Assembly (NCBI GenBank): GCA_947629685.1
Contig: CANREP010000009.1
Location: 1-64,000 of the forward strand
Direction of reading: 5' to 3'
DNA: 64,000 bases
DNA from: an uncultured Phascolarctobacterium sp.
Lineage (GTDB): Bacteria; Bacillota; Negativicutes; Acidaminococcales; Acidaminococcaceae
The position numbers were made by a program, and so were the translations under genes. Below are positions 11,057 to 24,074 of the stretch, one piece after another. The notes under the pieces were generated by a model, which searched no databases, was not told where the DNA came from, and saw only the letters and a list, made by a program, of their open reading frames with translations. Within the stretch, counting starts at the first letter, position 1; every line of letters begins with the position of its first letter.

Positions 11057-13614
11057 CTGCCGCTCTCCTTCCTTGCCTCATCCTGTAATCTATACAAAGC
11101 ATTCATAGCTTCAATCGGCGTCATACTCATAACGTCCAGCTGCAATATCTGCTCTGCCAAACTGCTGGTAAACAGCGAATCCATAGGCTGCGGCCTAACC
11201 TCCGCTGTGGGAGGTACTTTCACCATCTCCTCATTTCTGTCATATCCAGCCAGTATTTCGTTGGCTCTTTCTACGACTTTCTTCGGCAGGCCGGCCAGTC
11301 TTGCTACATGTACGCCATAGCTTTTGTCGGTACCGCCCGGTACGATGCGGCGCAAAAATACTATGTCGTTGCCGCGTTCTTTAACTGCTACAGAATAATT
11401 TTTAACGCCCTCCAGTTCATCTTCCATAGCAATCAACTGGTGATAATGAGTGGCAAATAATGTTTTGGCCTTAATGCGGCTGTGGATATACTCCATAACA
11501 GCTCTGGCAATACTCATCCCATCAAAAGTACTGGTGCCGCGGCCTACCTCGTCCAGGATAATCAGACTGTCTTTAGTCGCGTAGCGCAGTATCTGCGCCA
11601 CTTCATTCATCTCTACCATAAAAGTGCTCTGCCCCGTTGCCAGGTCATCGCTGGCGCCCACTCGCGTAAATATCTTATCAACAGGACAGATGCTGGCCTG
11701 GCGCGCCGGAATAAAGGATCCCATCTGCGTCATCAGCACCAGCAGCGCCACCTGCCGCATATAGGTCGATTTCCCAGCCATATTGGGGCCTGTAATAATA
11801 ATCATCCGCTCGCTGCCGTCCAAGTTAACGTTGTTGGGCACAAAGATTTCTTTTTCCAGCAGTCGTTCCACCACAGGATGCCTGCCGTCGACAATCTTTA
11901 TCGCGCCCTTATTATTTAGCTCCGGCCGCACGTAATTATATTTATAAGCAGCCATTGCCAGCGCTGCCAACACGTCCACTGTGGCCAAAGCTCTGGCAGT
12001 CTGCTGCAGCTCTTCAATCTTGCCGCGGATTGTTTCTCTCAGACAACTGAACAGATAATATTCCAGCTGCTGTATTTTTTCCTTAGCGCTCAAGATTTTA
12101 TTTTCAAAATCTTTCAGTTCAGGAACGATATAACGCTCCGCATTAACAAGCGTCTGCTTTCTGACAAAATAATCCGGCACACTGGCAGATTGTCCTTTCG
12201 ATACTTCGATATAATAACCGAACACCTTATTGAAACCTACCTTGAGGGTCTTGATACCAGTTTCATCTTTAATTTTCTGCTCAAAATTCTGCATCCAGGC
12301 CTTATTATCTCTGGCGATAAGATGCAGCTCGTCCAGTTCGGTATTATACCCGCCCCGTATCATGCCGCCTTCACGCACAGAAAAAGGAGGCTCGTCAACT
12401 ACTGCGCGCTGCAGTTCGGCAGCCAACTCCGTATGCAGATGCATATCTTTATATATTTTTTGCAGGCGGCTGCTGCCACATTTTTCCAGCAAAGCCTTGA
12501 TTTCCGGCAGCACTGCCAGCGAAGTACGCAAAGCCACTAAATCTCTGGCATTGGCACTGCCGACTTCAATGCGGGAAATAATCCTTTCCAGATCAAAAAC
12601 TGTCTTCAGCTTCTCGATAACCGCTTCCCTCAGCTGATTGTTCTCCAGTAATTCCGCCACCGCATCCTGCCGCTGTTTTATCTTTCCGACATCAAGCAGC
12701 GGACTTTCAATCCAGCTGCGCAGCCTGCGGGCCCCCATAGACGTACTGGTAAAATCAAGCACTTCCATCAGTGTTCCCCTTTTAGAGCCGTCGCGCATGT
12801 TTTTAACTAGTTCAAGATTGCGTATCGCAGTGACATCCAACTGCATAAAAGCATCTTTTTCGATTTTATGCAGTCTGTTGATGTGGGTAAGATCCGCCAT
12901 AACCGTAGCGTGAAGATAATCAAGCAGATATTCCACTGTCTTCTGTACCAGAGAGCTTTCGCCGCCGTCTTCAAAATGCTGAGAAAAATAATTTTCCGGG
13001 TCTTCCTCCCAAGAGCTGATAGCGCATTCCGGCAGCTTACTGCGCAGCCATTCACGCAAAGTTTCCCAGCCTTCCGGCTCTTGCCGCAGCACTATTTCAG
13101 CAGGCTGCATTCTAAACAGCTGCTCAATGATATTCAACAACCGTTCTTCACCGCCGGCTGTAAACCAAAGGCATTCCCCCGTAGAAACATCCGCTGCCGC
13201 CAGACAGAGCTGCCTGTCTTCTTCATACAGGAATACCAGATACCTGTTGCGTTTATCTTCCAGTACCTGGTCATTGATAGCGGTACCGGGAGTAATGATT
13301 TTGATAACCTTCCGTTGGACAATCCCCTTGGCCAGTTTGGGGTCTTCCACCTGCTCACAGATAGCTATCCTGTAACCTTTTTTAACCAGTTTGGCTATGT
13401 ACCCGTCAACAGAATGATAAGGAACTCCGCACATCGGCATATTCTCCATCCCGCCTGCACGTTTGGTCAAAGTAATATTCAACTCTCTGGACGCCGTGAC
13501 AGCATCCTCGAAAAACATTTCATAAAAATCTCCTAATCTGAAAAACAGCAGTTCATTTTGATGTTCCTTTTTTACATCAAGATATTGCTGTACCATAGGA
13601 GTGTAATTAGCCAT
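11053..13614 (-). CDS. mutS: DNA mismatch repair protein MutS
   Basis: MutS binds base mismatches and small loops. The 853-residue protein is of MutS1 type. The F-x-E mismatch-wedge motif is seen in FRLGDFYEMFFEDA near residue 30. The connector and lever regions follow, then the ATPase with Walker A GPNMAGKSTYMRQVA, LIILDEVGRGTSTFDG (Walker B and signature) and ATHYHQL. The C-terminal EQILQLDVMSMTPIEAMNAL is the dimer/tetramer segment. Length is standard. It overlaps miaB by 8 bases upstream and mutL by 4 downstream, so all three are translationally linked. Confidence 0.98.
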   Translation of the reverse strand: MANYTPMVQQYLDVKKEHQNELLFFRLGDFYEMFFEDAVTASRELNITLTKRAGGMENMPMCGVPYHSVDGYIAKLVKKGYRIAICEQVEDPKLAKGIVQRKVIKIITPGTAINDQVLEDKRNRYLVFLYEEDRQLCLAAADVSTGECLWFTAGGEERLLNIIEQLFRMQPAEIVLRQEPEGWETLREWLRSKLPECAISSWEEDPENYFSQHFEDGGESSLVQKTVEYLLDYLHATVMADLTHINRLHKIEKDAFMQLDVTAIRNLELVKNMRDGSKRGTLMEVLDFTSTSMGARRLRSWIESPLLDVGKIKQRQDAVAELLENNQLREAVIEKLKTVFDLERIISRIEVGSANARDLVALRTSLAVLPEIKALLEKCGSSRLQKIYKDMHLHTELAAELQRAVVDEPPFSVREGGMIRGGYNTELDELHLIARDNKAWMQNFEQKIKDETGIKTLKVGFNKVFGYYIEVSKGQSASVPDYFVRKQTLVNAERYIVPELKDFENKILSAKEKIQQLEYYLFSCLRETIRGKIEELQQTARALATVDVLAALAMAAYKYNYVRPELNNKGAIKIVDGRHPVVERLLEKEIFVPNNVNLDGSERMIIITGPNMAGKSTYMRQVALLVLMTQMGSFIPARQASICPVDKIFTRVGASDDLATGQSTFMVEMNEVAQILRYATKDSLIILDEVGRGTSTFDGMSIARAVMEYIHSRIKAKTLFATHYHQLIAMEDELEGVKNYSVAVKERGNDIVFLRRIVPGGTDKSYGVHVARLAGLPKKVVERANEILAGYDRNEEMVKVPPTAEVRPQPMDSLFTSSLAEQILQLDVMSMTPIEAMNALYRLQDEARKESGR

Positions 13615-21738: not shown

Positions 21739-23283
21739 CTATTTAGCGTAGTCAACTGCACGCGTTTCACGGATGATTACCACTTTGATCTGACCGGGAT
21801 ATTCCATCTCAGCTTCAATCTTCTTGGAAATATCACGCGCTAACAAAACAGCGGAAGCATCGTCGATCACATCCGGTTTTACCATGATGCGGATCTCACG
21901 ACCAGCCTGTACGGCATAGCATTTTTCAACACCCTCAAAAGATTCAGAAATCTCTTCCAATCGAGTTAAACGTTTCAAATAACTTTCAAGAGTTTCACGC
22001 CTTGCTCCCGGACGGGCAGCGGAAACAGCATCGGCAGCAGCCACAAGGACAGCTTCCACGCTCTTAGGCTCGACATCGCCATGATGAGCCATGATAGCGT
22101 TGATTACCAGTTCGGATTCACGGAATTTCTTAGCGATTTCCGCACCGATTTCAATATGAGAGCCTTCCACTTCATGGTCGATAGCTTTACCAATATCATG
22201 CAGCAAGCCGGCGCGTTTCGCCAATACGACATCTACACCCAGCTCAGAAGCCATGATACCTGCCAGACTGGCAACCTCTACGGAATGGTTCAATACATTT
22301 TGACCATAGCTGGTACGGTATTTCAGACGGCCCAGCAGCTTGATCAGTTCAGGATGCAAACCGTGCACGCCGACAGTAAAAGTAGCCTGCTCGCCTGCTT
22401 CTTTAATTTTCTGTTCAACTTCCTTCTGTGCCTTCTCCACCATCTCTTCAATACGGGAAGGATGAATTCTGCCATCATTGATCAGTTTTTCCAGCGCAAT
22501 ACGGGCAACTTCGCGGCGTACAGGATCAAAACCGGAAATAATAACGGCTTCCGGCGTATCGTCAATGATAAGGTCAATACCGGTCAAAGTTTCCAAAGTC
22601 CTGATATTCCTGCCTTCACGACCGATGATACGTCCTTTCATCTCGTCATTGGGCAGGCCTACTACAGAAACAGTGGTCTCAGCAACATGATCGGCTGCAC
22701 AACGCTGAATCGCCAGAGAGATAATCTCGCGCGCTTTCTTATCAGCTTCATCTTTAGCCTGCTGCTCCAGATCTTTGATAAGCATAGCAGACTCGTGTTT
22801 CACTTCATCTTCCAGAGAAGTTAAAAGCTCCTGTTTGGCTTCCTCACTGGTCAACCCAGACAGTCTTTCCAGCTCCTCAACCTGCTTCTGGTATAAAGCA
22901 TCAACCTTTTCCTGGGAAGCGTTTAATTTTGCTTCCTTAGAAGCCAGTTTTTCTTCTTTGCGTTCAAAAGAATCAATCTTTTTATCAAGATTTTCTTCTT
23001 TCTGCAGCAAACGTCTTTCCTGGCGCTGTAAATCAGCACGTCTGTCTTTATTCTCACGTTCCATTTCAGAACGCATACGATGAATTTCTTCTTTTGCTTC
23101 CATCATCGCTTCTTTGCGTTTGTTCTCACCGGCCTGCTCCGCTTCCTGAATAATACGCAGAGCTGTCTCTTCAGCCGTAGTAATCTTTCCTTCCGCAACA
23201 TTTTTGCGTACCAGATAGCCTACGGCGCCACCGGCAATACCAACGACAACGGCAGTACCAATTAGTTCTAAAATAATCTTCAC
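21739..23283 (-). CDS. rny: Ribonuclease Y
   Basis: RNase Y is the membrane-tethered endoribonuclease that starts mRNA decay in Firmicutes. It has an N-terminal membrane segment ([20 protein letters not shown]), a long coiled coil (to about residue 200), and a KH domain with [17 protein letters not shown]. The HD phosphohydrolase domain includes [14 protein letters not shown] and [12 protein letters not shown]. Length is about 511-514 residues depending on start. The GTG at 23283 is given as a placeholder: it is part of the AGGAGGTG ribosome binding site, while ATT codons 3' of it have better spacing. An upstream TTG at 23328 has no ribosome binding site. Confidence 0.93.
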
Positions 23284-23419
23284 CTCCTGAATACTTATTC
23301 CTTCATAATTATTTTTGCATACTAACAACAGGCTCTTTTGCGGGCCTGTTCCAAATGTCCTTATTCCATTGAATCCTCTAATCTATATTATTTAGCATTA
23401 CAAAATTCTGAAAAAGGGC

Positions 23420-23451
23420 AAAAAACAAGGCAACAAATACATGTTGCCTTG
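23420..23451 (-). terminator. Terminator hairpin in the recX-rny gap
   Basis: On the minus strand CAAGGCAACA and TGTTGCCTTG (10 perfect pairs) enclose a 6-base loop and are followed by TTTTTTGCCC. It lies downstream of the promoter at 23491-23519 and upstream of rny, so it may end recA-recX transcripts and also attenuate rny. Confidence 0.75.
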
Positions 23452-23490
23452 TCGAAAACAAGAGACAAATTAACACGATTGGATAATTAC

Positions 23491-23519
23491 ATTTTAATTA
23501 AATTTAACAGAAATGTCAA
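23491..23519 (-). promoter_or_regulatory. Consensus promoter upstream of rny
   Basis: On the minus strand TTGACA (23514-23519), a 17-base spacer and TAAAAT (23491-23496), just after the recX stop. Transcription would start near 23484 and run through the hairpin at 23420-23451 before reaching rny. Confidence 0.65.
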
Positions 23520-23540: not shown

Positions 23541-24074
23541 CTACATATCGTCAGTAAAATGTAATTTTTCCAGGATAAAATGTACATATCTTGTTGAAAA
23601 GCCCCGTACACCCAAAAAGCGTACCGCTGAGGCATATATTTTTTTGTCTGCCGGCTGTTGTATTTTTTCTGCATTACGCTGCATAAAAAGTTCACAGGCA
23701 GCTCTGGCGCGTTCAGCTTCCTCTTCTTCACTGAACCGGCTCAAAATTTCGGCAAAATATTGCTCCGGCACATGTTTACGCTGCAGTTCTGCCAGCAGAT
23801 GCCTGCGCCCGTAGTATTTTTTACTCAGCCAGGCTTCATACACTCTTGACGCATAACGTCTTTCATCCAGAAAACCATATTCTGTCATTTTTTTAACAGC
23901 GGCTGCAACAAATTCTTGCGGAGCGCCTTTCTGCAACAACTTGCTTACCATATCGGCAACGCAGTAATCTCTGTAGGCAAGCAGGCTCAACGCATAGTCA
24001 TAAACCTGCATCTCGTCTTCAAATTTCTTCTTTAAAGATTGTTTCCACATTGCCTGCAGTTTCCTCAACAGCAT
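23541..24074 (-). CDS. recX: Regulatory protein RecX
   Basis: RecX binds RecA filaments and limits their activity. The body is made of three-helix RecX repeats: [20 protein letters not shown], then [20 protein letters not shown], then further helical segments to the C-terminus. Up to 177 residues. Three in-frame ATGs are possible, at 24074, 24050 and 24011; the first two lie within the recA end. [10 protein letters not shown] (24011) starts just after the recA stop but has a weak ribosome binding site. The recA-recX order and overlap are typical and imply coexpression under LexA control. Confidence 0.88.

Follow-up and report, generated by a model that had tools for sequence, protein, structure and literature searches.

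How is the synthesis of RNase Y set in an uncultured Phascolarctobacterium of the gut, where the rny gene stands behind a near-consensus promoter and a terminator-like hairpin follows almost at once? RNase Y is known as the initiator of mRNA decay in Bacillus subtilis, and it is probably the main mRNA-degrading enzyme of Phascolarctobacterium and its relatives. In the window, by which we mean the whole 64-kb stretch of DNA that was analysed, from a genome of 1.78 Mb, the minus strand carries recA (25074-24019), recX and rny in that order (Table 1), the second of which we take to be recX from its position and sequence. We propose, with a probability of about 70%, that RNase Y synthesis is limited by two devices acting in series, transcription that ends early in a leader devoted to rny and initiation at a near-cognate start codon, a design that resembles that of infC.

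Table 1. Features of the rny locus, with positions in the window and the basis of each assignment.
Feature	Position	Strand	Basis and remarks
recX	23541..24074	-	177-codon ORF, overlaps the end of recA; precedes the leader
Promoter TTGACA (23519-23514), 17-nt spacer, TAAAAT (23496-23491)	23491..23519	-	11/12 matches; predicted start near 23484
5'-terminal element UCCAAUCGUGUUAA	23470..23483	-	At the predicted 5' end, shortly after the -10 box
Intrinsic terminator: hairpin 23451-23426 (up to 23453-23424) plus TTTTTT 23425-23420	23420..23453	-	Folding, own terminator scan, relatives
Remaining leader: conserved stretches and a second hairpin (23350-23327)	23292..23419	-	Alignment, 12 Phascolarctobacterium-type and related loci
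Extended Shine-Dalgarno AGGAGGTGA	23280..23288	-	Sequence and start census
Proposed AUU start of rny	23272..23274	-	Start census; alternative AUU at 23277-23275
rny (RNase Y) coding sequence	21739..23274	-	ORF and rny of relatives

The initial annotation had placed a near-consensus promoter just after recX, with RNA starting near 23484, and a 10-pair terminator with six T some 35-60 bases downstream and 140 bases before rny, and both descriptions hold. The hairpin, CAAGGCAACA-TGTATT-TGTTGCCTTG, has 10 pairs, or 12 if it is extended into the T-run, and lies 33-58 nt downstream of the predicted start and about 145 nt before rny. A leader RNA of 67 nt folds at -18.5 kcal/mol against a mean of -7.9 for shuffled sequences (z -5.3, with 0/200 shuffles as good), and the terminator scores -16.6 kcal/mol in our own terminator scan; its absence from a first program-made terminator list of the window is probably explained by the stem extension, which consumes part of the T-run. 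Promoter-like sites with at least 10/12 matches number 16 in 19 kb, counting both strands, and a 12/12 promoter stands directly upstream of recA at 25141-25113. Four places in the window combine a promoter of at least 10/12 with a terminator no more than 260 nt downstream, namely the rny leader, an FMN riboswitch leader, a SAM riboswitch leader and a plus-strand site at 11888-12032 that is antisense within an 853-codon ORF. The FMN (29777-29663) and SAM (42580-42474) riboswitches are each followed by a terminator, and as attenuators they share with rny the order of promoter, leader, intrinsic terminator and gene, but the rny leader differs in belonging to no Rfam family and in having only about 30 nt before its hairpin. 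A search of the window with Rfam 15 at gathering scores found no family in the rny leader, and a search at E up to 1 of L001, L009, L014, L019 and 17 other loci gave no match in any leader read. Further down the leader, UUUUUUGCCCUUUUUCAGAAUU and UUCAAUGGAAUAAGGACAU are kept in Phascolarctobacterium-type loci, and the second hairpin is ACAGGC..GCCUGU.

To place these features in context, 134 rny loci of Negativicutes were fetched and 16 duplicates removed, leaving 118 (43 from Acidaminococcaceae and 75 others), which represent related species rather than independent observations; names such as Sporomusaceae-type, Selenomonadaceae-type and Succiniclasticum-type are labels by likeness to named relatives. 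An upstream promoter of at least 10/12 with a 17-nt spacer is present within 420 nt before the Shine-Dalgarno sequence in 118/118 loci, each leader being anchored on the best promoter in those 420 nt, by which L009, L118 and perhaps others are mis-anchored. The leader terminator is found in 51/118 loci against 6.1 expected from shuffled leaders, and it is concentrated in Acidaminococcaceae, with 40/43 loci against 3.6 expected, compared with 11/75 against 2.5 in the other Negativicutes, most of which lack it. Thirty-three of the 40 terminators are of the window's hairpin type, RGGCRAC...GUUGCCY (34 by a second pattern count, which includes L025, where the match lies in the loop only). The 5' element UCCAAUCGUGUUAA recurs after the -10 box with at most 3 mismatches in 32/43 Acidaminococcaceae loci (33 with the mis-anchored L009) and in 19/75 others, against 0/118 in a control stretch, and its exact form occurs once in the genome.

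The initial annotation had proposed covariation across the rny leaders of Negativicutes as a check. In alignment A1, which comprises 38 of the 43 Acidaminococcaceae leaders (L016, L018, L020, L021 and L118 were dropped), 95.9% of the cells of the stem pair. Two cells are changed on both sides, a result that 0/500 shuffles equalled, but the control slid by -3 has six such cells, so covariation adds little, and sequence conservation is the main evidence for the stem. A model of the leader, R1, has a single match in the genome under study, which is the rny leader. Within the family, 42 of 59 genomes together have 43 matches, 40 of them directly upstream of rny by coordinates; the matches of G075 and G347 are not placed relative to rny, and that of G068 which lies elsewhere is a weak second one. 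R1 derives from sequences of this very family, the window among them, so matches within the family are to be expected and only their scarcity elsewhere is informative. Promoter, intrinsic terminator and rny follow one another on one predicted transcript, which is the layout of an attenuated leader, and comparison gives good support to attenuation by a terminator that rny transcripts would have to pass.

What acts on such a leader could be RNase Y itself. The initial annotation had considered feedback on the enzyme's own leader sensible, and such feedback would mean that RNase Y cleaves or binds the leader. B. subtilis offers a precedent, as RNase Y there autoregulates by cutting its own message, both in the 164-nt 5' UTR and in the early part of the ORF (PMC10303841). 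In both organisms the 5' leader would be the control region, but control in B. subtilis is by mRNA cleavage with no terminator named, and the main text of the same source contains the word "terminator" nowhere (count 0), which suggests that the B. subtilis case does not use attenuation (PMC10303841). We regard feedback on the leader as possible in Phascolarctobacterium, though somewhat doubtful.

A simpler alternative is that the hairpin is the plain terminator of the recA-recX operon, with constitutive read-through serving rny and no regulation at all. The hairpin does lie only about 90 nt past the recX stop codon in the window, a separate terminator before the promoter was not found in 20/43 loci, the window's among them, and the leader terminator is present in 0/12 Selenomonadaceae-type loci, where by eye rny seems not to follow recX. 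The loci that do have a second terminator speak the other way. A separate terminator-like hairpin ends no more than 60 nt before the rny promoter, or inside it, in 19/43 loci (a count without a shuffle background, which leaves out L006, L013, L114 and L118, whose hairpin ends at a greater distance and is possibly part of recX), and 17 of these 19 nevertheless keep the leader terminator, L024 and L026 being the two that fail our definition. The leader hairpin is therefore not merely the terminator of recX and seems to be kept in its own right. The order of promoter and then terminator is also conserved, even though the reverse order would free rny. In the window's genus the hairpin probably ends recA-recX transcripts as well, but that this is its whole role we consider unlikely. 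The rny promoter is overlapped by a terminator-like stem (such as AUCCCCAAAAAG..CUUUUUGGGGAU) in L019, L022, L024, L026, L032 and L125-L129, where the spacer between the -35 and -10 boxes holds the 3' arm of that stem.

It is also conceivable that rny has a promoter of its own after the hairpin, and that the start at 23484 yields only a trans-acting small RNA of about 60-65 nt. Many small RNAs combine an open 5' end with a terminator hairpin, as does the RNA predicted here, whose open 5' end is conserved; in addition, the window contains a weak promoter-like site (9/12) at 23414-23387, downstream of the leader hairpin. But sites of this quality are common, with 53 of at least 9/12 in 19 kb, and in 14/43 Acidaminococcaceae loci the hairpin ends no more than 19 nt before the Shine-Dalgarno sequence, with the U-run inside that gap, so there is no space for a later rny promoter in those loci and rny would have to be reached by read-through. 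A leader that makes only a small RNA is accordingly quite improbable in our judgement. Between the two options that the initial annotation had left standing, attenuation or a short RNA of about 60 bases, the comparison favours attenuation (the terminator in 40/43 loci, the short gap in 14/43, its retention in 17/19 and the linkage of R1 to rny), and the short RNA becomes an expected by-product of it.

What we regard as the strongest anomaly at the rny locus is one that the initial annotation did not mention, and it concerns translation. The start region of rny in the window, AGGAGGUGAAGAUUAUUUUAGAA, contains no usable ATG, GTG or TTG. Throughout the Negativicutes set, 116/118 rows have only AUU, AUC or AUA 4-12 nt after AGGAGG, and 116/118 have one of these codons at positions +7 to +9; the exceptions are L139, with ATG at +4, and L188, with ATG at +13. 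A near-cognate AUH codon at normal distance from a strong Shine-Dalgarno sequence, with no canonical start there, is thus found in 116/118 loci, and on this basis we extend the claim of a near-cognate rny start, with initiation presumably at that AUH codon, to the whole class. The arrangement is much less common in the outgroup of 56 loci, mostly Clostridia, where the start is canonical in 42 (3 of them at +13), near-cognate only in 11 and neither in 3, counted over 4-13 nt rather than the 4-12 nt used for Negativicutes, a wider range in which L188 would count as canonical. Within the genome under study, AGGAGGTG-N4-6-ATH has six sites, of which five have an ATG 15-16 nt in and only that of rny has none. 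A start at the GTG within the Shine-Dalgarno sequence (23283-23281) instead of AUU is very unlikely, for although this GTG is in frame in 74/118 rows, the window included, the other 44 have it in another frame, a stop codon lies in frame between the Shine-Dalgarno sequence and the AUH codon in 19/118 (directly before AUH in L021 and L162), the GTG overlaps the Shine-Dalgarno sequence without having one of its own, and the codon preceding AUH is not conserved. In Clostridia-type loci (L074-L076, L078, L079, L081, L082 and similar) the rny Shine-Dalgarno sequence is AAGGAGGTGCTCCTG, which is self-complementary (AGGAG/CTCCT) and so might fold back directly upstream of the start codon, a GTG or ATG.

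Genes with natural near-cognate starts are few, and the closest known design is that of infC, the gene for IF3. This initiation factor discriminates against start codons of the AUU, AUC and AUA type, and in E. coli it is well known to feed back on infC, whereas such control of rny would be a prediction; in E. coli, pcnB also has a natural near-cognate start that limits its yield and, like rny, concerns RNA decay. As a positive control for near-cognate starts we read infC in 30 loci, of 40 genomes with a match, and 30/30 (L194, from the genome under study, and L201-L229) had AUU or AUA some 8-9 nt downstream of GGAGG. By eye, a hairpin with a U-run stands shortly upstream in most of them, and 4/30 rows, again including this genome, have an in-frame ATG 3 nt after GGAGG. 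The two genes thus share AUU or AUA behind GGAGG and mostly a leader hairpin with a U-run, but they encode different products, and the infC leader of this genome has no R1 match; Rfam at gathering scores likewise gave no match in L194. In Staphylococcus aureus, the start codon of infC is AUA and stands behind an extended Shine-Dalgarno sequence, and reporters with AUU or AUA and an extended Shine-Dalgarno sequence yield about 10% of AUG, with ccpN in rich medium reaching up to 30% (PMC13009471). The cvfC1 and ccpN genes of that species resemble rny in their natural, yield-limiting near-cognate starts and extended Shine-Dalgarno sequences, but they and pcnB encode other proteins, and a leader terminator goes unmentioned for them in the parts of that source that bear on these genes (PMC13009471).

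Taken as a mechanism, our proposal is that RNA polymerase would start near 23484 and that part of it would stop at the hairpin about 60 nt on, releasing a short RNA of about 60-65 nt as a by-product, so that rny mRNA would arise by read-through only. This mRNA would be translated from the AUU 8 nt behind the extended Shine-Dalgarno sequence, which by analogy with infC may limit initiation. Together, termination and the AUU start could keep RNase Y low and adjustable, by a design that appears also at infC in the same genomes. More speculatively, and with the odds against it, rny and infC of Negativicutes might form a gene pair whose translation from AUU, AUC or AUA rises when IF3 is scarce, to which the Acidaminococcaceae rny leader with its UCCAAUCGUG 5' end would add a second input by attenuation, through whatever signal might change read-through. 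If this is true, the capacity for initiating mRNA decay would be coupled to the condition of the machinery that initiates translation, a link between the two processes that can be tested. A class-wide near-cognate start would also bring a global decay enzyme into the small group of genes that naturally start at AUU-type codons, and it suggests that an rny start annotated at the GTG within the Shine-Dalgarno sequence would be wrong. Our search of the open literature, which leaves most subscription journals outside its scope, turned up neither a near-cognate start of rny nor a terminator in its leader.

Pairing between the 5' element and an arm of the terminator looks possible by eye, and we asked whether the element could act as an antiterminator. 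Pair counts give no support, nor do shuffles (mean z 0.26 over 38 leaders, with L016, L020, L021, L124 and L127 skipped) or swaps between 13 genera (P = 0.54, with L009 carrying a wrongly placed 5' end), and low shuffle fractions (0.00-0.05) occur only in a few Succiniclasticum-type rows; none of the three tests thus supports switching by this pairing. A leader-peptide attenuator was rejected, as by eye no Shine-Dalgarno sequence for a short ORF precedes the terminator and the GTG in the element is directly followed by TAA in L015, L019 and others.

Beyond Acidaminococcaceae, rny leaders carry structures of other kinds. A leader terminator is found in 24/55 outgroup loci against 4.4 expected. 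A different hairpin, CCGAG...CUCGG, lies within 300 nt before rny in 32/75 Negativicutes outside Acidaminococcaceae, 11/55 outgroup loci and 0/43 Acidaminococcaceae, compared with 1, 0 and 0 for a reordered pattern and 0, 0 and 0 in the next 300 nt upstream. Most of these hairpins in Negativicutes are followed by UUUACCC instead of a U-run, and we therefore do not claim attenuation class-wide. In Sporomusaceae-type leaders (L027, L035, L037, L039, L049, L057 and 26 more) the conserved AAAGCCGAG..CUCGGCUUUACCC hairpin stands mostly 30-50 nt upstream and is often preceded by a AGGGGAGCAAU stretch; no Rfam match was found among those scanned, and RNAalifold, run on a set of 37 from which L133, L134, L155 and L188 were dropped, returned the CCGAG/CUCGG stem only, with almost no covariation term. 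Desulfosporosinus-type leaders (L058, L061, L065, L070 and L092) are about 210-250 nt long, have a terminator at their end and share long conserved stretches, among them CUUAUAGAUUUC and GACUAACGAG, which looks like an undescribed structured leader.
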